A stretch of 64,000 nt of DNA, taken from assembly GCF_003056055.1 (NCBI RefSeq), contig NZ_PYFP01000002.1, forward strand, positions 620,001 through 684,000, written 5' to 3'. Both the position numbers and the translations under genes were made by a program. Below the pieces are notes generated by a model that saw only the letters and a program-made list of their open reading frames with translations, did no database searches and was not told the DNA's origin. This document shows, piece after piece, positions 11,722 through 53,537 of this stretch. Numbering within the stretch: position 1 is the first letter of the stretch; every line of letters starts with the position of its first letter. Source of the DNA: Glaciimonas sp. PCH181 (lineage in GTDB: Bacteria; Pseudomonadota; Gammaproteobacteria; Burkholderiales; Burkholderiaceae_D).

Positions 11722-13762
11722 ATCATTCTTATCGCGGCTTACGCGTTACTACAGTTGGTATACCGCTGGTTTTATCGGCTTTTTGATTATTTTGGCGATT
11801 CTGGAAAACGAAGGTTTTCCGCGCTCATGGATCGGCTATCTATTCATGTTTGCGACGATCGCGTTATATGCGGGGATCGGCGTCGTTAGCCGAACATCAG
11901 ACGTCTCCGAATATTACGTTGCCGGACGCCGCGTGCCGGGGATATTCAACGGGATGGCGACCGCCGCCGACTGGATATCGGCAGCGACGTTTATTAGCCT
12001 GGCGGGTGGCTTGTATTTGCAGGGTTTCGATGGCTTGGCCTATATCATCGGCTGGACCGGTGGCTATTGTCTGGTCGCGCTGATGATCGCGCCGTATTTG
12101 CGCAAATTCGGTCAATACACTATTCCCGACTTTTTGGCGGCGCGCTACAGCGGTCGTTTTGGCGGCAAATATGGCGGCAACCCCGTCCGTATTTTGGCCG
12201 TGATCGCGACAGTATTGATTTCCTTTACCTACGTCGTCGCACAGATTTACGGCGTCGGCCTCATCACATCGCGCTTCACTGGCGTCGATTTTTCGGTCGG
12301 CATATTTCTCGGTCTGGCAAGCATTCTGGTGTGTTCGTTTTTGGGCGGCATGCGGGCGATTACCTGGACGCAGGTCGCGCAGTACATCATCATCCTGTTT
12401 GCGTATTTGATCCCGGTGATCTGGCTATCGGCCAAGCATACGCATAATCCGATACCGCAATTTGCCTATGGCTCGGTCATGATGCAATTGGGCGACATCG
12501 AAAAGACGTTGAGCGATGATCCTAAAGAATTAGAAGTGCGGCGTATTTTCAAAGAACGGGCGGCGATCTATGACAAGCGTCTTCAGGACTTGCCACAATC
12601 CTGGGCGCAAGGCCGGATGGAAGCCCAACGTCAGCTAAAAATCTTGAAACACAGCAGCGAAACTTCTCTGATTGATATTCGTGCCGCCAATCGAAAATTA
12701 AGCGACTATCCCAAATCACCCGATGAGGCCAGGCAACGATGGACCGAGGCCAAAGCGCTGAATCTGGCGCATGCTGATCCTCCCACTCCGCAAGCAACGC
12801 CTTTTCCTGGCAAGGATAAAGAAGCGTCGGATATCAAGCGCAACAACTTTTTGGCGGTGGTCTTTTGTTTGATGCTGGGCACGGCCGCGCTGCCGCATGT
12901 GTTGATGCGCTACTACACCACGCCATCGGTGCAAGAAACCCGCAAATCAGTATTTTGGACGCTGTTTTTTATCTTACTGATTTATCTGACCGTGCCAGCG
13001 TTGGCAGTGCTGGTGAAGTACGACATCTACACCTCGCTCGTGGGTACGGAATATTCCCATCTGCCGAACTGGGTCTCGTACTGGGCGAATATCGACAAAA
13101 CTAATCCGTTGGTCAGCATCATTGATCTGAATCACGACGGCATTGTGCAGCTATCGGAAATTACGCTAGACGGCGACATGATCGTACTGGCAACGCCCGA
13201 AATCGCGGGACTGCCGTATTTCATTTCGGGACTGGTCGCTGCCGGTGGTCTGGCGGCGGCGCTGTCTACCGCCGATGGTTTATTACTGACGATCTCCAAC
13301 GCGTTATCGCATGACGTGTACTACAAAATGATCGATCCGGCGGCCTCGACCCAGAAGCGCGTGACGATCTCGAAATTGCTGTTGCTGGTGGTGGCGCTGC
13401 TGGCGGCATATACCGCATCGTTGAAACCCGGGGATATTTTATCGATGGTTGGCGCGGCATTTTCGCTGGCTGGTTCGGCACTTTTCCCGTCCCTGATCAT
13501 AGGCGTATTCTGGAAACGGGCGAATCAGCAAGGCGCGCTGGCGGCTATTATTGTCGGCTTCGGCACCTGCGTGTATTACATGCTGCACACGCTGCCTGCC
13601 TTTGGTGGAACCGCCGCGGCCCAGTGGTTTCACATCGCGCCGATTTCCGCCGGGGTTTTCGGCGTGCCTGCCGGATTGCTGGCGATGGTGTTAGTCAGCC
13701 TGCTGACGCCCCCGCCGGATGCGCGCACGATGGCGTTGGTCGACTATATTCGCGCGCCCTAA
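11711..13762 (+). CDS. sodium:solute symporter, VC_2705/ActP-like subfamily
   Basis: 683 residues from the ATG at 11711 (MKNKSFLSRLTRYYSW); the frame stays open further upstream but that part overlaps the DUF4212 gene. About 13 membrane spans. SSS-family signatures include SEYYVAGRRVPGIFNGMATAAD-type sequence near residue 60 and LAAALSTADGLLLTI near residue 520. A hydrophilic insert of about 130 residues (roughly 255-375) interrupts the membrane core, as in the VC_2705 subfamily. A loop before the later spans reads DLNHDGIVQLSE, which matches a calcium-binding EF-hand loop. The substrate is probably a short carboxylate such as acetate, by family analogy only. Confidence 0.88.
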   Translation: MKNKSFLSRLTRYYSWYTAGFIGFLIILAILENEGFPRSWIGYLFMFATIALYAGIGVVSRTSDVSEYYVAGRRVPGIFNGMATAADWISAATFISLAGGLYLQGFDGLAYIIGWTGGYCLVALMIAPYLRKFGQYTIPDFLAARYSGRFGGKYGGNPVRILAVIATVLISFTYVVAQIYGVGLITSRFTGVDFSVGIFLGLASILVCSFLGGMRAITWTQVAQYIIILFAYLIPVIWLSAKHTHNPIPQFAYGSVMMQLGDIEKTLSDDPKELEVRRIFKERAAIYDKRLQDLPQSWAQGRMEAQRQLKILKHSSETSLIDIRAANRKLSDYPKSPDEARQRWTEAKALNLAHADPPTPQATPFPGKDKEASDIKRNNFLAVVFCLMLGTAALPHVLMRYYTTPSVQETRKSVFWTLFFILLIYLTVPALAVLVKYDIYTSLVGTEYSHLPNWVSYWANIDKTNPLVSIIDLNHDGIVQLSEITLDGDMIVLATPEIAGLPYFISGLVAAGGLAAALSTADGLLLTISNALSHDVYYKMIDPAASTQKRVTISKLLLLVVALLAAYTASLKPGDILSMVGAAFSLAGSALFPSLIIGVFWKRANQQGALAAIIVGFGTCVYYMLHTLPAFGGTAAAQWFHIAPISAGVFGVPAGLLAMVLVSLLTPPPDARTMALVDYIRAP

Positions 13763-13787
13763 GCGAACCCAAAAGCAGACGGATAGC

Positions 13788-13907
13788 ATGGGCAAATTGA
13801 AAGAGAAGAATATGACCTATTGGCATAAGAATTGCTTACTGCTTATTCTGACTTTCCTTGCATTGAATCATCATTTCGGTTGTTGCTTTAAGCCCAATCA
13901 GGAGTAA
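13788..13907 (+). CDS. possible small membrane peptide
   Basis: A 39-codon frame (or 31 codons from the ATG at 13812, which has the purine-rich GAAAGAGAAGAA just ahead). It encodes a basic start, a hydrophobic stretch NCLLLILTFLAL and a Cys-rich end HHFGCCFKPNQE. It lies in the 290-base gap between the symporter and cupin genes. No family recognised; it may be chance. Confidence 0.22.
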   Translation: MGKLKEKNMTYWHKNCLLLILTFLALNHHFGCCFKPNQE

Positions 13908-14052
13908 AGTTATATCTACCGTGGTTTTACGGGGATAGTGCATTTAAGGTCGCCGAAGACAGCCCATGCGACCACTATATCAACGGTCTCGCTGCCGTTG
14001 ATTGTCGTCATGGTCATGTTAAATACGTATTTTGCATGAAAGGAACGATGCA

Positions 14053-14538
14053 ATGGATGCGCAAAACACCAATGACCAAGTAGTCCCAAAAACCGCGTTT
14101 TCTCACGTTCGTGAGGGTGATACCGCTTTTGAACCGGGTGGATTACGAGATTTTTTCCAATATCGCGATCTCGGCATCAGTGCTGCTACTGGTGGGCAAG
14201 TTATTGCCCAGTTGGTACGCGCAAATATCGCCCCCGAAGCAGGCACCGGCTGGCATCGACACGAGGCCAACTTCCATATCGTCTACATGCTTAAAGGTTG
14301 GGCGCGTTTCATGTATGAGGATCAGCTAACACTGGTCAACACAGGTGATTGCGTGCATCAACGCCCCGGAATAGTGCATTTTTTGTTCGACTATTCTCCC
14401 GATATGGAATACCTGGAAATCGTTAGTCCTGCTGATTTCACCTCGATTTCGGTTCTCGGACCGTGCGAGGTACCAAAGCCAACGCCATGGTTCAGCAAAT
14501 TAAACGACGGGACCGACTCCCCACTCAATAGCGAATAA
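14053..14538 (+). CDS. cupin domain protein
   Basis: 161 residues from the ATG at 14053, preceded by AAAGGAACG; a TTG at 14032 is in frame but less likely. One cupin barrel: motif 1 GTGWHRHEANFHIVYMLKG and motif 2 GDCVHQRPGIVHFLFDYS, giving the usual His/Glu metal site. Small single-domain cupins of this kind may bind or convert small molecules, or act as sensors; no substrate is evident. It lies just upstream of the ATP-grasp/alpha-E/transglutaminase/Anbu cluster in the same direction, but a hairpin and a new promoter lie between, so it is probably a separate unit. Confidence 0.8.
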   Translation: MDAQNTNDQVVPKTAFSHVREGDTAFEPGGLRDFFQYRDLGISAATGGQVIAQLVRANIAPEAGTGWHRHEANFHIVYMLKGWARFMYEDQLTLVNTGDCVHQRPGIVHFLFDYSPDMEYLEIVSPADFTSISVLGPCEVPKPTPWFSKLNDGTDSPLNSE

Positions 14539-14568
14539 CACCGCGATCACACTTGAAAGAGTAGCCGC

Positions 14569-14588
14569 GGTGAGATTTGAATCTCACC
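14569..14588 (+). terminator. hairpin after the cupin gene
   Basis: GGTGAGA at 14569-14575 pairs perfectly with TCTCACC at 14582-14588 around a six-base loop, 30 bases past the cupin stop codon. There is no T run, so termination is only possible. Confidence 0.35.
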
Positions 14589-14607
14589 CAGAATAAATAG
14601 TGCTATT

Positions 14608-14636
14608 TTGACAATTCCAATATGAGACTGAATAAC
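14608..14636 (+). promoter_or_regulatory. candidate sigma-70 promoter of the ATP-grasp/Anbu cluster
   Basis: A perfect -35 TTGACA at 14608-14613, a 17-base spacer and AATAAC at 14631-14636 (four of six matches to TATAAT). It would start transcription near 14643, about 78 bases before the ATP-grasp gene. Confidence 0.5.
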
Positions 14637-14642
14637 ATCGGC

Positions 14643-14675
14643 ATTGATCGATGCCTTTTAACCACATCGATCAAT
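14643..14675. promoter_or_regulatory. perfect 11-base dyad at the predicted transcription start of the cluster
   Basis: ATTGATCGATG at 14643-14653 and its exact complement CATCGATCAAT at 14665-14675, separated by 11 bases. Its place, at the predicted +1 of the promoter before the ATP-grasp gene, fits an operator for a dimeric repressor or a 5' RNA hairpin. Confidence 0.5.
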
Positions 14676-14720
14676 CAGCCTTTCGATATTTAATCATCAA
14701 ACAACTGCAAAGCAAAAGTC

Positions 14721-16136
14721 ATGGCAAATTTTTTCGATGAAATGTACACCGACGGCACCAATTTGGCGCGTCCCCATTATGGTGAGTTTTGTAGCTGGCT
14801 AGGTCAGCAGTCCGCCGAAACCATTGCACGGAAAAGGGTCGAAGCTGACGTTATTTTTCGCCGCGTCGGCATTACCTTTGCGGTCTATGGCAATGATGCA
14901 GGCACTGAACGACTGATCCCGTTCGATATCATTCCGCGCATCATCCATGCCGCCGAATGGACGCAACTGGAAGCGGGGCTGATTCAGCGCGTTACCGCCC
15001 TGAATATGTTCATCCATGATATTTATCACGATCAGAACATCATTAAAGCCGGTGTCATTCCCGCTGAACAAATTCTGCGCAATGCCCAATATCGCCCTGA
15101 AATGCAGGGAATTTCAGTGGCTTCCGACATTTACGCACACATTGCTGGCGTCGATATCGTGCGTGCCGGTGAAGGCGATTTTTACGTACTGGAAGACAAT
15201 CTGCGGGTCCCGTCCGGCGTGTCTTACATGCTGGAAGATCGCAAAATGATGATGCGCTTGTTTCCAGAGCTATTTACCCGCCACAAAATCGCGCCGGTCG
15301 ATCATTATCCCGACATGTTGCTGGACAATCTTCGCTCAGTCGCACCGGTCGGCGTCACCAATCCGACGGTCGTGATCATGACGCCGGGTATGTATAACTC
15401 GGCCTATTTCGAGCACGCATTTCTAGCCCAGCAAATGGGTGTAGAACTGGTCGAAGGCAAGGACTTGTTTGTCAAAGACAATGCGGTATATATGCGCACC
15501 ACGCGCGGACCGAAACGGGTTGACGTGATTTATCGTCGGATTGACGATGACTATCTTGATCCACTGGCATTCCGCCCTGACTCAACCCTCGGCGTACCTG
15601 GCTTGTTATCGGTATATCGGGCTGGCGGCGTGACGTTGGCGAACGCGATCGGCACCGGCGTTGCCGATGACAAATCGATCTATCCGTATGTTCCTGACAT
15701 GATCAAGTTTTACCTGTCCGAAAAACCCATACTGAACAACGTTCCAACCTTTCAATGCCGTAAAAAAGACGACTTGGCCTATACCCTGGCTAACCTCAAA
15801 GATCTGGTCGTCAAAGAAGTCCACGGCGCGGGCGGTTATGGCATGTTGGTCGGGCCAGCCTCAACCAAGCAGGAAATCGAAGACTTTCGCGCTCGCGTGA
15901 TTGCTAATCCAGAAGGTTATATCGCCCAGCCGACGTTGGCATTGTCGGCCTGCCCTACTTATGTCGAAGCCGGGATTGCCCCGCGCCACATCGACCTGCG
16001 CCCGTTTGTCCTGTCGGGTAAAACCGTCTCGATGGTACGTGGCGGTCTGACGCGCGTGGCACTGAAAGAAGGATCGCTAGTCGTCAATTCATCGCAAGGC
16101 GGCGGCACAAAAGACACCTGGATACTGGAGAAATAA
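14721..16136 (+). CDS. circularly permuted ATP-grasp family protein
   Basis: 471 residues. Matches the CP_ATPgrasp family (DUF404/DUF407), in which the ATP-grasp elements occur in permuted order. Visible elements are LEDNLRVPSGVSYMLEDR near residue 155-175, YRRIDDDYLDP near 275, the nucleotide-loop-like VKEVHGAGGYGMLVGP near 370, and DLRPF followed by GGLTRVALKEGSLVVNSS at the end. ATP-grasp enzymes ligate carboxylates to amines or thiols, and a peptide-tag or small-peptide ligase role has been suggested for this family, without a proven substrate here. It starts a tight operon: the alpha-E gene follows after one base. Relatives are often linked to Anbu peptidase genes. Confidence 0.88.
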   Translation: MANFFDEMYTDGTNLARPHYGEFCSWLGQQSAETIARKRVEADVIFRRVGITFAVYGNDAGTERLIPFDIIPRIIHAAEWTQLEAGLIQRVTALNMFIHDIYHDQNIIKAGVIPAEQILRNAQYRPEMQGISVASDIYAHIAGVDIVRAGEGDFYVLEDNLRVPSGVSYMLEDRKMMMRLFPELFTRHKIAPVDHYPDMLLDNLRSVAPVGVTNPTVVIMTPGMYNSAYFEHAFLAQQMGVELVEGKDLFVKDNAVYMRTTRGPKRVDVIYRRIDDDYLDPLAFRPDSTLGVPGLLSVYRAGGVTLANAIGTGVADDKSIYPYVPDMIKFYLSEKPILNNVPTFQCRKKDDLAYTLANLKDLVVKEVHGAGGYGMLVGPASTKQEIEDFRARVIANPEGYIAQPTLALSACPTYVEAGIAPRHIDLRPFVLSGKTVSMVRGGLTRVALKEGSLVVNSSQGGGTKDTWILEK

Positions 16137-16137
16137 C

Positions 16138-17139
16138 ATGTTAAGCCGCACCGCCGATCACTTATTCTGGATGGCCCGCTACACTGAGCGGGCAGAAAAT
16201 ACCGCACGCATGCTGGATGTGCATTTACAAACCGGGATGTTGCCACAGGCCGTAGAAGACACCGAACAAGGCTGGCGCGCAATTCTGGGGATTTCCGAAT
16301 TGCAGGAAGCCTACGACAAACGCCATGAAACTCTGACGGCGAAAGACGTCATTGACTTCATGGTGCGCGACCCGAGTAATTCTTCGTCTATCGCTGCCTG
16401 CCTGACACAAGCGCGTGAAAATGCACGGGCCGTGCGCGGCGCGCTGACTACGGAAGCATGGGAAATCCAGAACGCTACCTGGCTGAAGATGCAGACCTAT
16501 CTCAAAACCAACGCGCTGGAACAAAATCCGGCCGAGTTTTTTGAGTGGGTCAAACATCGCTCGCATCTATCTCGTGGCGTCACCATCGGCACCATGCTGA
16601 AAGACGAAGCTTTTCACTTTATTCGTCTTGGGACTTTTCTGGAGCGTGCGGATAACACCGCACGGATTATCGACGTCAAATTTCATGGCGCCAAAGAAAA
16701 GCAGCAAAAACAAACGCAGTCGCAAGGTCTGCGCCAAAGTCAGGGCGAGCACGCAGAAGTCACCGCAGAACCGCAGCTGGACTTCTATTACTGGGCTGCG
16801 ATTTTGCGTTCCGTCTCGGCATTTGAAATTTATCGGAAAGTCTATCGCGACGTCATCTCACCGGCCCGCGTAGCCGATCTGCTGATCCTGCGTGCCGACA
16901 TGCCACGTTCGCTGCTGGCCTGCCTTGAAGAGGTCGTGAACAATCTCAAGCACGTCAGCAACAATGCATCCGCCGATACCGAGCGCTTCGCTGGCAAACT
17001 GCACGCCGAACTACAGTTCAGTAATATCGATGAAATTCTTGAAGACGGTTTGCATGATTATCTGACCGTATTTTTTGAGCGCATCTTCGAACTGGGTAAT
17101 CGTATCAGCCGTGACTTTCTGGTTCCGCTAACGGCCTGA
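16138..17139 (+). CDS. alpha-E domain protein (DUF403)
   Basis: 333 residues, almost wholly helical. It begins MLSRTADHLFWMARYTERAENTARML, the usual start of the alpha-E family, and has repeated ERADNTARIIDVK-like segments (residues 17-30 and about 166-180), suggesting an internal duplication. A glutamine-rich linker lies near residues 185-205. No catalytic residues are known; the family always travels with the permuted ATP-grasp protein, so it is probably its partner or a scaffold. One base separates it from the ATP-grasp stop and seven from the next start. Confidence 0.88.
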   Translation: MLSRTADHLFWMARYTERAENTARMLDVHLQTGMLPQAVEDTEQGWRAILGISELQEAYDKRHETLTAKDVIDFMVRDPSNSSSIAACLTQARENARAVRGALTTEAWEIQNATWLKMQTYLKTNALEQNPAEFFEWVKHRSHLSRGVTIGTMLKDEAFHFIRLGTFLERADNTARIIDVKFHGAKEKQQKQTQSQGLRQSQGEHAEVTAEPQLDFYYWAAILRSVSAFEIYRKVYRDVISPARVADLLILRADMPRSLLACLEEVVNNLKHVSNNASADTERFAGKLHAELQFSNIDEILEDGLHDYLTVFFERIFELGNRISRDFLVPLTA

Positions 17140-17146
17140 CCCGTTC

Positions 17147-17959
17147 ATGCTACTGACCATCAGGCACGAAACGGTCTATCGCTATACTGAGCCGCTCACT
17201 TATACGATTCAGCAATTGCGGTTGTCGCCTCGTGCCGAACCACAGCAGCGCACGCTGGACTGGCGCATCACCAGCTCTGGCGTGCATCATCCTTTTAACG
17301 ACGCATTTGGCAACCTTTGCCACATGCTGACCATTACCGGGCAACATAATGAAGTCCGGATTGTGGCAGAAGGCAGCGTTGTGGTGGCGCCATTGCATCT
17401 GGGCCGGCTATCGCAAGCAGGTGAATTTTTGCCGCTTGTATTTACGGTGCCGACCCAACTTACGCAACCCTCCCCCGCGATTATCGATTTTGCCCATAGA
17501 CATTTAATCCGGGCGGCAAACAGCGACAATCTGCTTGCGCTAGCCACCGCAATTTGTGATGCCGTGGCATATCAAAGCGGCGCAACTCTCGTCACCACCA
17601 GCGCCGACGACGCGCTGCGGCTCGGTCAGGGGGTGTGCCAGGATCATGCGCATTTATTCCTCGCCTGCTGTCATGCGCTGGGCATTCCTGCACGCTATGT
17701 TTCAGGCTATATCGACCCCGGCAACAGCGACCATGCAGAAAGCCATGCATGGGTGGATGTCTGGATTGTGCAACCCGATTTTTCGGGCTGGATTAGCGTC
17801 GACGTCACGCATGCGCGCTTTGCCAGCGACGTGTATTGCCGTCTCGCAATCGGCCGCGATTATGATTCTGCTGCGCCGGTGCGCGGTGTACGACGTGGCG
17901 GCGGTTCGGAAACCCTTAGCGTACGCGTCAACGTTACTGCGACAGCATCGGATCAATAA
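17147..17959 (+). CDS. transglutaminase-like cysteine protease family protein
   Basis: 270 residues. An N-terminal beta-rich domain (the bacterial transglutaminase-like N-terminal region, RHETVYRYTEPLTYTIQQLR) precedes a transglutaminase core with the full triad: Cys164 in GQGVCQDHAHLFLACC, His200 in ESHAWVDVW and Asp219 in WISVDVTH. In bacteria such proteins are usually peptidases or amidases rather than cross-linking enzymes. It sits seven bases behind the alpha-E gene, and the trio with the Anbu gene is a known recurrent neighbourhood. A role in cutting an ATP-grasp-made peptide link is a reasonable guess only. Confidence 0.88.
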   Translation: MLLTIRHETVYRYTEPLTYTIQQLRLSPRAEPQQRTLDWRITSSGVHHPFNDAFGNLCHMLTITGQHNEVRIVAEGSVVVAPLHLGRLSQAGEFLPLVFTVPTQLTQPSPAIIDFAHRHLIRAANSDNLLALATAICDAVAYQSGATLVTTSADDALRLGQGVCQDHAHLFLACCHALGIPARYVSGYIDPGNSDHAESHAWVDVWIVQPDFSGWISVDVTHARFASDVYCRLAIGRDYDSAAPVRGVRRGGGSETLSVRVNVTATASDQ

Positions 17960-18008
17960 TTCTTAATATTTCGTCAACAACCGTTGCGCTGAAAAGTGAT
18001 AGCCTCCG

Positions 18009-18037
18009 TTGTTAGTTATTCTTCAGATAACTAACAA
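18009..18037. promoter_or_regulatory. perfect 11-base dyad between the transglutaminase and Anbu genes
   Basis: TTGTTAGTTAT at 18009-18019 and ATAACTAACAA at 18027-18037, a perfect inverted repeat with a seven-base spacer. AT-rich and with no T run after it, so an operator is more likely than a terminator. A possible -10 (TAAAAT) lies 14 bases downstream at about 18052, so the dyad would cover the -35 region of a promoter for the Anbu gene. Confidence 0.5.
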
Positions 18038-18085
18038 TGTGGCGCAATCCTGTAAAATCTGTCCTTTAGATTTTTTATTTGCATC

Positions 18086-18961
18086 ATGACTTATTGCGTC
18101 GCTATGCGCCTGAAGACCGGGCTGGTTTTCTTGTCCGACTCTCGCACCAATGCCGGTGTCGATCACGTCGGCACTTTCCGTAAGATGAGCGTGTTTGAAA
18201 ATCCGGGCGAGCGCATGCTGGTCATGATGACGGCAGGCAACTTATCGATCTCGCAATCGATTAAACAAATCATCTCGGAACACACCACCGCCACCGGAAA
18301 AAGTATCTGGACCGCCAATTCGATGTACGAAGCGACGCAAATTGTGGGCGATGCTATTCGAATAGTATTTGAACGCGATGCCAGCGCGTTGCAAAAATTC
18401 GGCATCGATTTCAACGTCGGGATTATTTTTGGCGGCCAGATCAAAGGCGAACGTTGCCGTTTATTCCAGATTTACTCCGCAGGCAATTTCATCGAAGCGC
18501 ATGATGAGAACCCTTATTTCCAGATCGGCGAAGCCAAATACGGCAAACCGATCATCGATCGGGTTTTCGTCGGCTCAGATTTGACGCTTGATCAAGCTGC
18601 AAAATGTGCGCTGCTATCAATGGATTCGACCTTACGCTCCAATTTATCGGTCGGCTTGCCACTTGATTTGCTGGTGTATGAAAGCGAAAAACTGGCGCTA
18701 ACCCATTTCGTGACCATCGATGAAAAAAATCAGTACTTCAAGTCGATTATCGGCAGTTGGTCTAGCCAGCTTAGGCGGGTCTTCGATGAAACCGCAGATC
18801 CGTTGTGGCATCCAGTCCCGGCAGAGGTTTCCGATAGATTGACGTTGAAAGCCGACCAAACTCAGTCGCTGGTGATAACGCCGCCCAAGGATATTCTGTG
18901 GGATAGCATCCCAACTGCATTGCAAACGCTGGCCCAGAGTCAGAATAGCGGGCAAAGCTAG
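18086..18961 (+). CDS. Anbu proteasome-type peptidase
   Basis: 291 residues. It starts MTYCVAMRLKTGLVFLSDSRT, which matches the Anbu (ancestral beta subunit, COG3484) family of Ntn-hydrolases related to HslV and the proteasome beta subunit. After removal of Met1 the nucleophile would be Thr2; Asp18 and Lys33 are spaced like the Asp17 and Lys33 of proteasome subunits. No ATPase partner (HslU, Mpa or FtsH-like) is encoded nearby; instead it follows the ATP-grasp, alpha-E and transglutaminase genes after a 126-base gap containing a dyad. Its substrate and physiological role are unknown for the family. Loss of function is not suggested: the frame is intact. Confidence 0.88.
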   Translation: MTYCVAMRLKTGLVFLSDSRTNAGVDHVGTFRKMSVFENPGERMLVMMTAGNLSISQSIKQIISEHTTATGKSIWTANSMYEATQIVGDAIRIVFERDASALQKFGIDFNVGIIFGGQIKGERCRLFQIYSAGNFIEAHDENPYFQIGEAKYGKPIIDRVFVGSDLTLDQAAKCALLSMDSTLRSNLSVGLPLDLLVYESEKLALTHFVTIDEKNQYFKSIIGSWSSQLRRVFDETADPLWHPVPAEVSDRLTLKADQTQSLVITPPKDILWDSIPTALQTLAQSQNSGQS

Positions 18962-19023
18962 CGTTAGTTTGCGTAATCGTTGTAAGCGCTGAGTATTTCA
19001 GCTGCGGCGATTATTCCAGCCAT

Positions 19024-19054
19024 AAAAAAAGCTCCCGATGCCGGGAGCTTTTTT
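19024..19054. terminator. bidirectional terminator between the Anbu gene and purM
   Basis: GCTCCCG and CGGGAGC around a three-base loop, flanked by seven A on one side and a T run on the other. It can end both the plus-strand Anbu transcript and the minus-strand purM transcript. Confidence 0.85.
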
Positions 19055-19078
19055 ACTATCAATCTTGCAAAAATAGAT

Positions 19079-20122
19079 TTACAGCACAATCGTCTGTGCT
19101 TCGCCGTCAGCGCGCGTCCGGATTTCACCGATTGTAAATACTGTCTCGCCCGCAGCCTGCAATTGCGCCAATGCAGCTTGTGCATTTTCTTTCGCCACGA
19201 TCACGGCCATACCGATACCGCAGTTGAAAACCCGATGCATTTCATCATCAGCGACGCCGCCATGCTCTTGCAGCCATGTAAATAGTGGCGGCATCGTCCA
19301 GCCATCGCGATGCAGTACAGCGGTTAAATTGTCTTGCAGCACGCGCGGGATATTCTCTACCAGACCACCGCCGGTAATATGGACCATACCTTTGACTTCC
19401 ATCGATTCCATCAATGCCAGCAGCGGCTTGACGTAAATACGGGTCGGTGCCATCAGCACATCGGCCAGACTACGGCCATGGAAATCAGCATCAAGGTCAG
19501 GTTTAGCAACAGCAATAATCTTGCGAACCAACGAATAACCGTTGGAGTGCGCGCCCGATGATGCCAGACCGAGGATCACATCACCGGGAGTGATTTTGGT
19601 GCCGTCGATCAGCTTGGATTTCTCGACTGCGCCAACCGCAAAACCGGCCAGATCGTATTCGCCGTCTGGATACATACTTGGCATTTCGGCAGTTTCGCCG
19701 CCGATTAAGGCGCAACCGGCTTGCTCGCAACCTTGGGCGATGCCCTTGATGACATCGGTCGCGCTAGGCACGTCAAGCTTGCCGCAGGCGAAATAATCGA
19801 GGAAAAATAGTGGCTCGGCGCCTTGGACCAGAATGTCATTGACGCTCATTGCGACCAGATCGATACCTACGGTATCGTGACGATTCAGCATAAAAGCTAG
19901 TTTTAGCTTGGTGCCAACGCCATCCGTGCCAGAAACCAACACTGGCTCTTTGAATTTCTTGCTGATTTCGAACAGCGCACCAAAACCGCCGATGCCGCCC
20001 ATTACGCCTTCGCGCATTGTGCGTTTAGCAAATGGCTTGATGGCCTCGACTAAAGCGTCGCCGGCGTCCATATCAACGCCGGCGTCGCGATAGGAAAGAG
20101 AAACATTGGATGTTGAAGTCAT
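19079..20122 (-). CDS. purM: phosphoribosylformylglycinamidine cyclo-ligase (AIR synthetase)
   Basis: 347 residues from the ATG at 20122 ([15 protein letters not shown]); an upstream in-frame codon at 20176 would add 18 unlikely residues. It closes the imidazole ring of purine biosynthesis: FGAM plus ATP gives AIR. Signature elements: [44 protein letters not shown] (nucleotide-binding loop) and [10 protein letters not shown]. Length is normal (E. coli 345). Divergent from the AI-2E-family permease gene, as often found upstream of hda in betaproteobacteria. Confidence 0.95.
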
Positions 20123-21397: not shown

Positions 21398-22138
21398 ATG
21401 AGGCAGTTACTGCTCGACATTACTGCCGACGACGCACAAACCCTGGATACTTTCGTCATCGGAAATAACCAGGAAGTGTTGCATTTTTTGCAGCAATTAA
21501 CAGCACCATCAACCGCCGTAGTTACCGCACCGGGCGATAGATTCGTCTACCTGTGGGGTCAATCCGGCGCAGGGAAAAGCCATTTACTACAAGCTTTTGC
21601 ACGTGCCACCAACGCGCATTTGATCTCTGCCGCCGATTTAAACGCGCATCATGCGACTGAATACAATGAGGCCTATAGCGCGGGCCTGTTTCATTTTTCG
21701 CCCGACGATACCGGCTATCTGATTGATGACTGCGACAAATTATGTGCAGAAGACCAGATTCTTGCATTTGCATTGTTTAACCAAATCCGCGAACATGGCG
21801 GCTGGCTGATTACCAGTGGCGGCCAACCGCCCGCAGAACTGACGAACACGGTGCGCGAAGATTTGCGTACGCGTCTCGGCTGGGGCCTGATTTATCAATT
21901 GCATGGCTTAAGCGACGAGGAAAAAATCTCGACATTGACGCAGGCAGCACAAGCGCGTGGGCTTACCCTGTCAAGTGGCGTGCTACCCTATCTCATTACC
22001 CATTTCAGACGTGATATGCGTTCATTAATGGCAAAGCTGGATGAACTCGACCGTTATTCGCTAGAAACCAAACGCCCTATAACCCTGCCGTTATTACGCA
22101 GCCTGTTACAACTCGAATCTGAAGAAAAATCATTATGA
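21398..22138 (+). CDS. hda: DnaA regulatory inactivator Hda
   Basis: 246 residues. A DnaA-like AAA+ domain alone, without DnaA's DNA-binding domain: Walker A WGQSGAGKSHLL near residue 51, Walker B YLIDDCDKL, and LRTRLGWGLIYQL (box VII-like). With the DNA-bound sliding clamp it stimulates ATP hydrolysis by DnaA and so limits re-initiation. The N-terminal MRQLLLDITADDAQTLDTF fits the clamp-binding QLxLD/QL motif. The stop overlaps the next start by four bases (ATGA), so the two are translationally coupled. Confidence 0.92.
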   Translation: MRQLLLDITADDAQTLDTFVIGNNQEVLHFLQQLTAPSTAVVTAPGDRFVYLWGQSGAGKSHLLQAFARATNAHLISAADLNAHHATEYNEAYSAGLFHFSPDDTGYLIDDCDKLCAEDQILAFALFNQIREHGGWLITSGGQPPAELTNTVREDLRTRLGWGLIYQLHGLSDEEKISTLTQAAQARGLTLSSGVLPYLITHFRRDMRSLMAKLDELDRYSLETKRPITLPLLRSLLQLESEEKSL

Positions 22139-37055: not shown

Positions 37056-38078
37056 ATGCATCTTGATACCCGCGCTCAAACTCTTCTGAAAGCCCTCGTA
37101 GAACGTTACATTCTCGACGGCCAGCCGGTAGGCTCGCGCGCGCTTTCAAAGATTTCGGGATTAGAGTTATCGCCTGCCACGATTCGCAATATCATGGCGG
37201 ATCTGGAAGAAATGGGCTTTGTCGCCAGTCCGCATACCTCTGCCGGACGGGTACCAACGCCGCGTGGTTATCGGGTGTTTGTCGATACGTTACTGACGGT
37301 ACAGCCGATTGATGAAAGCGCCCTTGAATCCCGGATGCAATCGCGCCTGCAAACCAACTCGCCGCAAAAGATCATTGCCAACGCTGCGCAAGTGCTATCG
37401 TCGTTGTCGCAATTTGCTGGTGTCGTACTAACGCCCCGGCGCGAATCCATCTTCCAGCAAATCGAATTTTTACGGTTATCCGAAAAACGCATCTTGCTGG
37501 TCATCGTGGGCCCCAGCGGCGATGTCCAGAACCGGTTGCTGCTAACCGATGTCGATTACACCCCGTCCCAGTTAGTACAAGCCGCAAATTACATCAATCA
37601 ACATTACGGCGGCCACAGCATAGACGATGTTCGCCATCGTTTACAAAGCGAAGTGCTGCAACTGCGCGACGACATGACGCGCTTGATGCAAGCCGCGGTT
37701 GAGGCTGGCAGCGATGCGATGACGGACAACGCAGATGATGTTGTGATTTCAGGTGAACGCAATCTTTTGAGCGTGACCGATTTATCGTCGAGCATGGCTT
37801 CGTTGCGTAAGCTATTCGATATGTTTGAGCAAAAAACCAATTTGATGCGCTTGCTAGATATCTCCGGCAAGGCTACAGGTGTGCAAATTTTTATCGGCGG
37901 AGAATCCCAACTCGTCCCGATGGAAGAAATGAGCGTCGTTACCGCGCCGTATGAGGTCAACGGTAAGATCGTCGGTACGCTAGGCGTCATCGGACCAACC
38001 CGGATGGCCTATCAAAGGGTCATCCCGATTGTAGACATTACGGCAAAATTACTCTCAAACGCATTAAGCCAGAACTAG
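37056..38078 (+). CDS. hrcA: heat-inducible transcription repressor HrcA
   Basis: 340 residues. N-terminal winged helix ([22 protein letters not shown] and [34 protein letters not shown]), then a GAF-like domain. Binds CIRCE repeats, usually before groESL in betaproteobacteria; its activity depends on GroEL. No CIRCE is visible in this window, so the target lies elsewhere. The last codons and the stop lie inside a perfect 18-base-pair hairpin. Confidence 0.94.
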
Positions 38079-38096
38079 TCTGGCTTAATGCGTTTG
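38056..38096. terminator. perfect 18-base-pair hairpin over the hrcA stop codon
   Basis: The arms at 38056-38073 and 38079-38096 are exact complements around a five-base loop; the hrcA TAG (38076-38078) lies in the loop. No long T run follows, so either it is an unusual terminator for the convergent hrcA and fur genes or it acts on hrcA translation end or mRNA decay. Confidence 0.55.
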
Positions 38097-53188: not shown

Positions 53189-53537
53189 TCGCAGCAACGT
53201 CTTACAGTAATATCACCCTGCTCCAATCGATAAAGCCTTTGCCTACTTTGTAGGCAAAGGCTTTATGCTATCCGCACCACATCAATCATCCATCCCCGCC
53301 TCTGAGACATATCGGGCGATAGAAGGTATTAAAATAATCTGGCTTCCAAGTATATTCTCACGCATTTTCTTAGTCCCGGCGATCCCCGATTGAGCGCTAA
53401 ATAGGAGTGCGAATGATTCCTGCTAATGAATGATGAAAAAGCTGAGTGCCTAGGCTATCATGGCGACTTTAAGGCGGTCCGGGTCGTATTTCCAAGGCTA
53501 CTCTCGCCCCACGTCGGTTTATTTTTAAGAGGCTCCC
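53189..53537. other. intergenic region between exbD and bacterioferritin
   Basis: Contains the 16-base-pair hairpin at 53230-53266. The remainder must hold the promoter of the bacterioferritin gene, but I see no clear Fur box or consensus promoter and no coding frame. Confidence 0.4.
53230..53266. terminator. hairpin after exbD
   Basis: A perfect 16-base-pair stem (arms 53230-53245 and 53251-53266) with a five-base loop, 41 bases past the exbD stop. No T run follows, so it may end transcription only partly, or protect the tonB-exbBD message. Confidence 0.55.

Follow-up and report, generated by a model that had tools for sequence, protein, structure and literature searches.

The window analyzed here, a 64,000-nucleotide stretch of the Glaciimonas sp. 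PCH181 genome, contains four intact genes between positions 14721 and 18961 that code for an ATP-grasp protein, an alpha-E protein, a transglutaminase-like protein and the proteasome-like hydrolase Anbu (Table 1). This is the gene order of the known Anbu operon. Successive genes are separated by 1, 7 and 126 bases, and so Anbu is joined less tightly than the other three. Open reading frames and Pfam matches agree with the original prediction of four unbroken frames in this order, the first three tightly spaced: CP_ATPgrasp_2 (PF14403, 3.2e-168), Alpha-E (PF04168, 1.2e-98; 330.9 bits against a cut-off of 20.8), Bact_transglu_N (4.1e-20) with Transglut_core (4.6e-22), and Proteasome (4.4e-6). 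NCBIfam provides no family for these four proteins or for the cupin encoded upstream.

Table 1. Positions of genes and candidate control elements at the Anbu locus, numbered from the first base of the window.
Feature	Position	Strand	Basis
Sigma-54-type promoter-like site TTGGCATAAGAATTGCT, symporter-cupin gap	13820-13836	+	Score 24 of 27; kept in three same-genus genomes
Hairpin in cupin gene leader	13964-14013	+	17 predicted pairs over four genomes
Cupin gene, between sigma-54-type site and operon	14032-14538 (conserved ATG 14053)	+	Cupin_2, 1.1e-8
Dyad, 9-bp arms	14569-14588		Inverted-repeat search
Sigma-70-like candidate promoter TTGACA-N17-AATAAC	14608-14636	+	Read from the sequence; missing from the promoter scan's list
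Dyad, 11-bp perfect arms, 11-base spacer	14643-14675		Inverted-repeat search
ATP-grasp protein, circularly permuted, predicted amide ligase	14721-16136	+	Intact ORF, Pfam, 3n6x match, EDNxRxPxG and GGYG
Alpha-E, all-helical protein	16138-17139	+	Intact ORF, Pfam; model mean pLDDT 83
Transglutaminase-like protein	17147-17959	+	Intact ORF, Pfam; Cys164, His200, Asp219
Dyad before Anbu, 11-bp perfect arms, 7-base spacer	18009-18037		Inverted-repeat search
Anbu, proteasome-like N-terminal threonine hydrolase	18086-18961	+	Intact ORF, Pfam, solved relatives; Thr2, Asp18, Lys33
Terminator-like hairpin between convergent Anbu and purM	19025-19054		13-bp arms, 4-base loop

The best solved relative of the ATP-grasp protein is 3n6x (3.8e-236) and that of the transglutaminase is 3isr (6.7e-13), while Anbu is most similar to 5loy (3e-85), 5nyw (6.6e-75) and 5nyj (1.2e-74), and all five PDB sequences matching it at E ≤0.001 are Anbu or peptidase entries. 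The alpha-E protein has no solved relative by sequence up to an E-value of 1. In a fold comparison, cytochrome bd (9.0) and NasR (8.9) scored too low for a helical protein to be claimed as relatives.

The catalytic residues predicted for the two hydrolase-like proteins are present and are also conserved. Residues Cys164, His200 and Asp219 of the transglutaminase are identical in all 59 proteins compared (58 relatives and the window), as are Thr2, which directly follows the methionine, Asp18 and Lys33 of Anbu in 81 of 81 (80 relatives and the window). Among 29 more distant Anbu proteins, the aspartate and the lysine are each present in all 29 and the threonine in 28, with serine in the remaining one. 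The ATP-grasp protein carries both EDNxRxPxG and GGYG, which we take to be the metal motif and the glycine-rich loop expected of an enzymatically active member of this family. Both are kept in the free-standing ATP-grasp proteins of all 74 close and all 40 distant relatives (114 of 114), the loop pattern GGYG having been picked after we saw that GxGGxG missed 18 of the 40 distant proteins. Concern that this protein might lack catalytic residues is thus answered by its retained signature motifs.

The locus is an ordinary intact copy of an operon type that is already known, and the association of the four gene families was, as originally stated, established in print. The Anbu operon of Pseudomonas and Yersinia has the same four families, order and Thr/Asp/Lys triad; the window differs in having a cupin gene between a likely sigma-54 promoter and the operon, and no enzyme difference is apparent from the excerpted accounts (PMC5666114, PMC6376114). 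Other Anbu proteins are known to form open split-ring assemblies (PMC5666114, PMC6376114). The NtrC cluster I35_5080-5083 of B. cenocepacia likewise includes ATP-grasp (DUF404, DUF407), alpha-E (DUF403) and transglutaminase genes, but its listing in the excerpted text includes a large transglutaminase protein and lacks Anbu (PMC5491218). The Pseudomonas RimK/RimB and RloABC systems also pair an ATP-grasp protein with a peptidase, and rlo adds a transglutaminase-domain protein. In contrast to the operon in the window, their peptidases are aspartic enzymes rather than Anbu, their transglutaminase is an inactive membrane protein, and the excerpted text makes no mention of alpha-E for either (PMC12239564).

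The original prediction also held that no unfoldase gene lies nearby, and the Pfam scan of neighboring proteins agrees, since it reveals no HslU-type unfoldase and a single AAA+ protein, which is Hda-like (21398-22138). A separate pair of genes elsewhere in the genome (L090), with a match to PF00227, presumably encodes HslV and HslU. HslVU and the proteasome share the Ntn-hydrolase fold family and threonine nucleophile with Anbu, for which kinship with the ancestor of the proteasome has been suggested, but unlike Anbu they have unfoldase partners.

How strictly these genes travel together was evaluated in 150 Pseudomonadota genomes. Anbu is found in 54 of them, and alpha-E is also present in 53 of these 54, the one exception being genome G133. 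Alpha-E was likewise found in all 10 incomplete close relatives that were searched. Conversely, Anbu is missing from 31 of the 84 genomes that have alpha-E. This asymmetry suggests that Anbu depends on the ATP-grasp/alpha-E ligase module and that the reverse is not so, a dependence that the present comparison adds to the published association. The two genes lie within 10 kb of each other in 47 of the 53 genomes that have both, and are farther apart or on different contigs in the other six; in 3 of 80 close relatives, Anbu is apart from the other operon genes. Hence the cluster is conserved as regards Anbu and the ligase pair. The transglutaminase, which the original prediction grouped with the other genes, is not a fixed member: no Bact_transglu_N match is found in 4 of the 54 Anbu genomes, and the gene is missing from the operon in 16 of the 80 close relatives.

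The same genome has a second version of the ligase module. At locus L087, ATP-grasp and alpha-E are fused in one paralog, and the Pfam families for ATP-grasp, alpha-E and transglutaminase are those of the Anbu operon. Unlike the operon, this module is fused, lacks both ATP-grasp motifs and adjoins a DUF2126 amidoligase protein. The motifs are absent from all 19 fused copies inspected (17 fused loci were fetched, with frames chosen under tblastn guidance). A fused copy is present in 44 of the 84 alpha-E genomes and is never found without a free-standing alpha-E gene. A sigma-54 site (score 24) at L087 was discarded because it is 289 bases ahead of the fused gene and the space between the genes there spans only 274 bases.

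The original prediction further described unexplained dyads, and these exceed chance. Three single-base shuffles of the window yielded no inverted repeats with arms of at least 11 and loops of at most 20, and the dyads at 14643 and 18009 are each above chance. The former occurs at a single place in the genome even when up to three mismatches are allowed, and the latter is a unique perfect match. Their conservation did not bear up: among close relatives, with arms of at least 9, the first is found ahead of none of 74 ATP-grasp genes and the second ahead of none of 80 Anbu genes, and neither is present in four same-genus genomes (arms of at least 8), which rules them out as a conserved regulatory element. 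Of the dyad before Anbu, three same-genus genomes keep only the sequence around its right half. Some relatives carry different dyads of their own. The sigma-70-like candidate begins with the very base at which the original prediction set the start of its feature, and TATTTTGA plus the bases that follow are kept in three same-genus genomes. A search of positions 13700-19100 with Rfam gave nothing at gathering score; its best match was Phe_leader (E 0.059), over the terminator.

The conserved control signal is instead the candidate sigma-54-type site in front of the cupin gene, which lies outside the region originally described. When scored against a sigma-54 consensus (maximum 27), the site at the same position in three same-genus genomes reaches 27, 26 and 26, and the score of 24 in the window was reached in 4 of 1000 shuffles of the 958-base region. 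No sigma-54 site lies directly upstream of the ATP-grasp gene in the window. The cupin gene occupies the corresponding position in the three same-genus genomes and probably shares the operon transcript. In its leader hairpin, two of the 17 predicted pairs are changed on both sides and others are broken in one of the four genomes.

Among relatives, a weighted scan places a sigma-54-like site near ATP-grasp above the shuffled 99% level at 37 of 75 loci, and at 17 of 40 across the phylum; Herbaspirillum loci lack the box. A strict scan requiring GG and GC cores gave no signal (9 of 74 upstream regions versus 13 of 74 gene interiors); the excess appears in the weighted scan because most relatives have TTGAT rather than TTGCW. 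Of 60 relatives, 28 have an NtrC-like site with two or fewer mismatches ahead of the box, against an expected 2.0. The best such site within 400 bases upstream of the sigma-54-type site in the window has four mismatches, and those in the same-genus genomes have three or four. The genome carries a sigma-54 gene. These signals point to control of the operon by nitrogen shortage, and the site ahead of the cupin gene would fit the published control of such operons: that of P. putida responds to nitrogen limitation and NtrB/NtrC (PMC7801951, PMC8050072), and the B. cenocepacia ATP-grasp, alpha-E and transglutaminase genes belong to the NtrC regulon (PMC5491218). In one P. putida study with three strains, the three operon partners of Anbu (PP_2685) rose 11- to 37-fold, against only 1.12-, 4.81- and 1.45-fold for Anbu itself (PMC7801951).

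Our favored reading, held tentatively and with slightly less than even confidence, is that the operon encodes an amide-ligase module that is switched on when nitrogen is limiting, and that Anbu, usually along with the transglutaminase, cleaves or transfers the product of this module. When nitrogen is short, NtrC and sigma-54 would raise transcription, in the present genus from a promoter ahead of the cupin gene. Judging from family chemistry, the ATP-grasp protein with its alpha-E partner would convert a carboxylate to an acyl phosphate and join it to an amine; the amide product would then be cleaved by Anbu, a threonine hydrolase that has no unfoldase, and may be transferred or trimmed by the transglutaminase in operons that carry one. 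The ligase pair would form the core, with Anbu as an accessory that depends on it, as seen in their co-occurrence. Because the operon has no constant peptide gene, its substrate is probably a metabolite or protein that originates from elsewhere in the cell or genome. That a bond made by the ATP-grasp ligase is the target of the hydrolases, as originally proposed, is an idea already in print, and both the retained motifs and the co-occurrence of Anbu with the ligase speak for it; formation of the link itself remains predicted. The Y. bercovieri ATP-grasp protein releases phosphate from ATP (PMC6376114). This release is not raised by Anbu, glutamine or glutamate, and might be plain hydrolysis (PMC6376114). 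The literature consulted reports no amide product for the operon, and a 2021 paper still describes Anbu as having no known function (PMC8665760). Further observations that run against the favored reading are the weak rise of PP_2685, the four mismatches of the best NtrC-like site, the TTGAT box, the Herbaspirillum loci, genome G133 and a P value uncorrected for kinship.

Anbu might instead act as a protease on its own, increasing protein turnover when nitrogen is limiting, with its three neighbors co-regulated for separate work. It binds proteasome inhibitors, and the authors who reported this favor protein degradation and rate a role in peptide synthesis less likely (PMC5666114); the genomes in which Anbu is separated from its partners would also suit such a role. 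A free protease would not need alpha-E, however, and alpha-E is retained even where Anbu is unlinked, which makes this explanation unlikely.

We consider it improbable that the ligase adds tags in the manner of ubiquitin or Pup and that Anbu strips the tags or degrades the tagged proteins, as proposed by Iyer 2009 (cited in PMC6376114) and as might be expected of a proteasome relative. A small-protein gene is not constantly present, with just 9 bases preceding Anbu in 4 of the 80 relatives, the neighborhood scanned offers no unfoldase, and pull-downs, as excerpted, gave no stable complex among operon proteins.

ATP-grasp enzymes build nitrogen-storage or export polymers in other systems. More doubtful still is that this module, which is linked to nitrogen status (PMC5491218, PMC8050072, PMC7801951), makes such a polymer for later degradation by Anbu and the transglutaminase, as induction at nitrogen shortage suits mobilization rather than formation of a store and no polymer is reported in the literature consulted.

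The fused paralog allows a more speculative extension of the amide-ligase reading, which we regard as unlikely, wherein the system has two tiers: an active ATP-grasp/alpha-E pair, and a fused, motif-less pseudo-ligase that steers the substrate or passes it to the DUF2126 amidoligase, with Anbu as the product hydrolase and nitrogen shortage as the switch. If so, these bacteria would run a nitrogen-scavenging conjugation and release pathway with a regulatory pseudo-ligase, and the occurrence of a second, fused copy in about half of alpha-E genomes would be explained. Anbu's reliance on the ligase, together with the nitrogen signal, directs the search for its function to a ligase product that would accumulate in nitrogen-starved cells lacking Anbu.

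The gene content of the operon is established: four intact frames stand in the order that the original prediction gave them, separated by gaps of 1, 7 and 126 bases, and the catalytic residues it named (Cys164, His200 and Asp219 of the transglutaminase; Thr2, Asp18 and Lys33 of Anbu, a proteasome-like N-terminal threonine hydrolase) are present and kept among relatives. On the 5' side are genes for a cupin protein and a sodium:solute symporter, and a convergent purM is the 3' neighbour of Anbu. Two earlier papers describe this operon, citing Iyer 2009 for it, together with Anbu ring structures and a Y. bercovieri Anbu that showed no peptidase activity on three substrates (PMC5666114, PMC6376114), and the Y. 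bercovieri ATP-grasp protein is stated there to release phosphate from ATP (PMC6376114). As of 2021, according to another paper, Anbu was still without an assigned function (PMC8665760). Among the open-licence matches listed, no title or abstract assigned a reaction to the operon, proposed that Anbu depends on the ligase, or raised the pseudo-ligase idea discussed below.

Coordinates of the features discussed (plain numbers, the window; G000, source genome; G133, a database genome; C, contig; L, locus cut from a genome)
Feature	Position	Strand	Remark
Sigma-54-type site	13820-13836		TTGGCATAAGAATTGCT, shortly 3' of the symporter stop
Cupin leader	13837-14052		from the sigma-54-type site to the cupin ATG
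Hairpin in cupin leader	13964-14013		
Stretch of the cupin gene	14194-14467		relative at G000:C1:20668-20941, 71% DNA identity over 274 bases
Dyad	14643-14675		directly 3' of a TTGACA-N17-AATAAC candidate
Circularly permuted ATP-grasp	14721-16136	+	intact frame
Alpha-E	16138-17139	+	intact frame
Transglutaminase-like	17147-17959	+	intact frame
Anbu	18086-18961	+	intact frame
Long perfect inverted repeat	38056-38096		arms 18, loop 5
Long perfect inverted repeat	53230-53266		arms 17, loop 3
Second module	G000:C2:778808-786093 (L087:4809-12094)		DUF2126 amidoligase with transglutaminase domain, fused ATP-grasp/alpha-E without motifs, second transglutaminase
Third proteasome-like gene (L089)	G000:C1:2473783-2474283		PF00227, 29 bits
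Anbu gene in genome without alpha-E match (L136)	G133:C88:6041-6775		sole case among 54

The ATP-grasp/alpha-E ligase pair exists without Anbu, and Anbu without the pair is very rare. Of 150 Pseudomonadota genomes drawn for comparison (cut-offs E 1e-15 for Anbu and E 1e-10 for alpha-E; both searches assumed to span identical genomes because their handles agree), 54 have Anbu and 84 have alpha-E; 53 carry both, 31 only alpha-E and one only Anbu (Fisher P 4e-17, uncorrected for kinship). The two genes lie within 10 kb of each other in 47 of the 53, and on a single strand in 37 of those 47. Since 53 of 54 Anbu genomes carry alpha-E and 31 others carry alpha-E only, this established co-occurrence suggests that Anbu depends on the ligase pair, although the Anbu-only genome, G133, is an exception. 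The third proteasome-like gene of the source genome, situated between lipoyl-domain dehydrogenase subunit-like genes, is perhaps BPH.

Motif conservation is established as well. EDNxRxPxG and GGYG, which we take to be the metal loop and the glycine-rich loop of ATP-grasp enzymes, occur in the window protein and in all 74 close and all 40 distant free-standing relatives; 28 of the distant ones come from genomes with Anbu and 12 from genomes that lack it. None of the 19 fused ATP-grasp/alpha-E paralogs compared has either motif: 17 were fetched from the 43 other draw genomes with a fused copy, one is the source-genome copy and one comes from a relative's locus, L039. Judged from sequence, this loss predicts that fused paralogs are no longer catalytic, as a pseudo-ligase would be. 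Fused copies, counted as open frames of at least 800, occur in 44 of the 84 alpha-E genomes, all 44 of which also have a free-standing alpha-E. In the source genome the fused gene sits between a transglutaminase gene and the DUF2126 amidoligase gene; the transglutaminase domains of this locus align and keep Cys, His and Asp.

The transglutaminase is a less constant partner at the locus. Bact_transglu_N matched in 49 of 53 other Anbu genomes plus the window (50/54), and was not found in G121, G141, G070 and G133; in G070 and G141 the ligase pair adjoins Anbu, with no transglutaminase within the stretch read. Among the best 80 of 487 relatives, the full set of four stands in order in 59. In 16 more, 14 of them titled Herbaspirillum, the locus has no transglutaminase; three have Anbu alone, one (L027) has only transglutaminase and Anbu close to a contig end, and L039 has the fused paralog and a distant transglutaminase. 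Ten of these 21 incomplete loci were searched genome-wide, and alpha-E and Bact_transglu_N were found in 10/10. Glaciimonas soli (G001; L048, L088) has Anbu alone next to purM, and the other three genes together elsewhere, on contig C28.

The original prediction had also pointed to unexplained dyads. These exceed chance, three shuffles yielding none, but are not kept in relatives; the one listed is placed as an operator might be. As far as sequence comparison can tell, the conserved control element is a putative sigma-54-type box, and its promoter-like conservation is established. Within 250 bases 5' of ATP-grasp, the shuffled 99% level is exceeded at 37 of 75 loci, the window and 74 relatives, against 0.75 expected. 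It is also exceeded in 17 of 40 ATP-grasp upstream regions that we chose across the phylum from the 84 alpha-E genomes. All nulls for the box, and those for NtrC below, come from shuffling single bases, and the relatives do not count as independent samples. A stricter scan of ATP-grasp upstream regions gave no excess because the usual box, TGGCACG-N4-TTGAT, has a weak -12 element. Within those 250 bases the window reaches a score of 14, and at the listed site 24 of 27, a score reached in 4 of 1000 shuffles of the surrounding 958-base region. Three same-genus genomes with matching gene order score 27, 26 and 26 at the equivalent position, where the flanks differ, and G. soli has a score-24 site 216 bases 5' of its ATP-grasp gene, in the group lying apart from Anbu. 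The cupin leader is kept in the three same-genus genomes, with both sides changed in 2 of 17 hairpin pairs; the window leader folds barely better than shuffles (z -1.9, 7/200 as good).

Of 60 relatives, 28 have NtrC-like sites with at most two mismatches 5' of the box, versus 2.0 expected, some of these sites at least 250 bases off and possibly inside the preceding gene; the best match has four mismatches in the window and three or four in the three same-genus genomes. Published studies report nitrogen control of P. putida PP_2685-2688 (PMC7801951, PMC8050072), count ATP-grasp, alpha-E and transglutaminase genes among the members of the B. cenocepacia NtrC regulon (PMC5491218) and tie the same domains to urea metabolism in marine metagenomes (PMC3597751).

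Amide formation by the ligase pair, its substrate and the order of action are what we infer, as is NtrC control in Glaciimonas sp. PCH181. Several published results argue against an amide ligase serving Anbu: a P. putida study found Anbu up by just 1.12-, 4.81- and 1.45-fold, against 11- to 37-fold for its partners (PMC7801951), neither Anbu nor glutamine nor glutamate stimulated the Y. bercovieri ATP-grasp protein, no stable complex among operon proteins was seen (PMC6376114), and the authors of PMC5666114 favour plain proteolysis. In four relatives the gap 5' of Anbu measures 9 bases, and therefore no peptide gene is constant at that position. The sigma-54-type box would drive the cupin gene and the four operon genes. 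The operon in the window, intact and ordinary, belongs to a system that is known but has yet to be explained.
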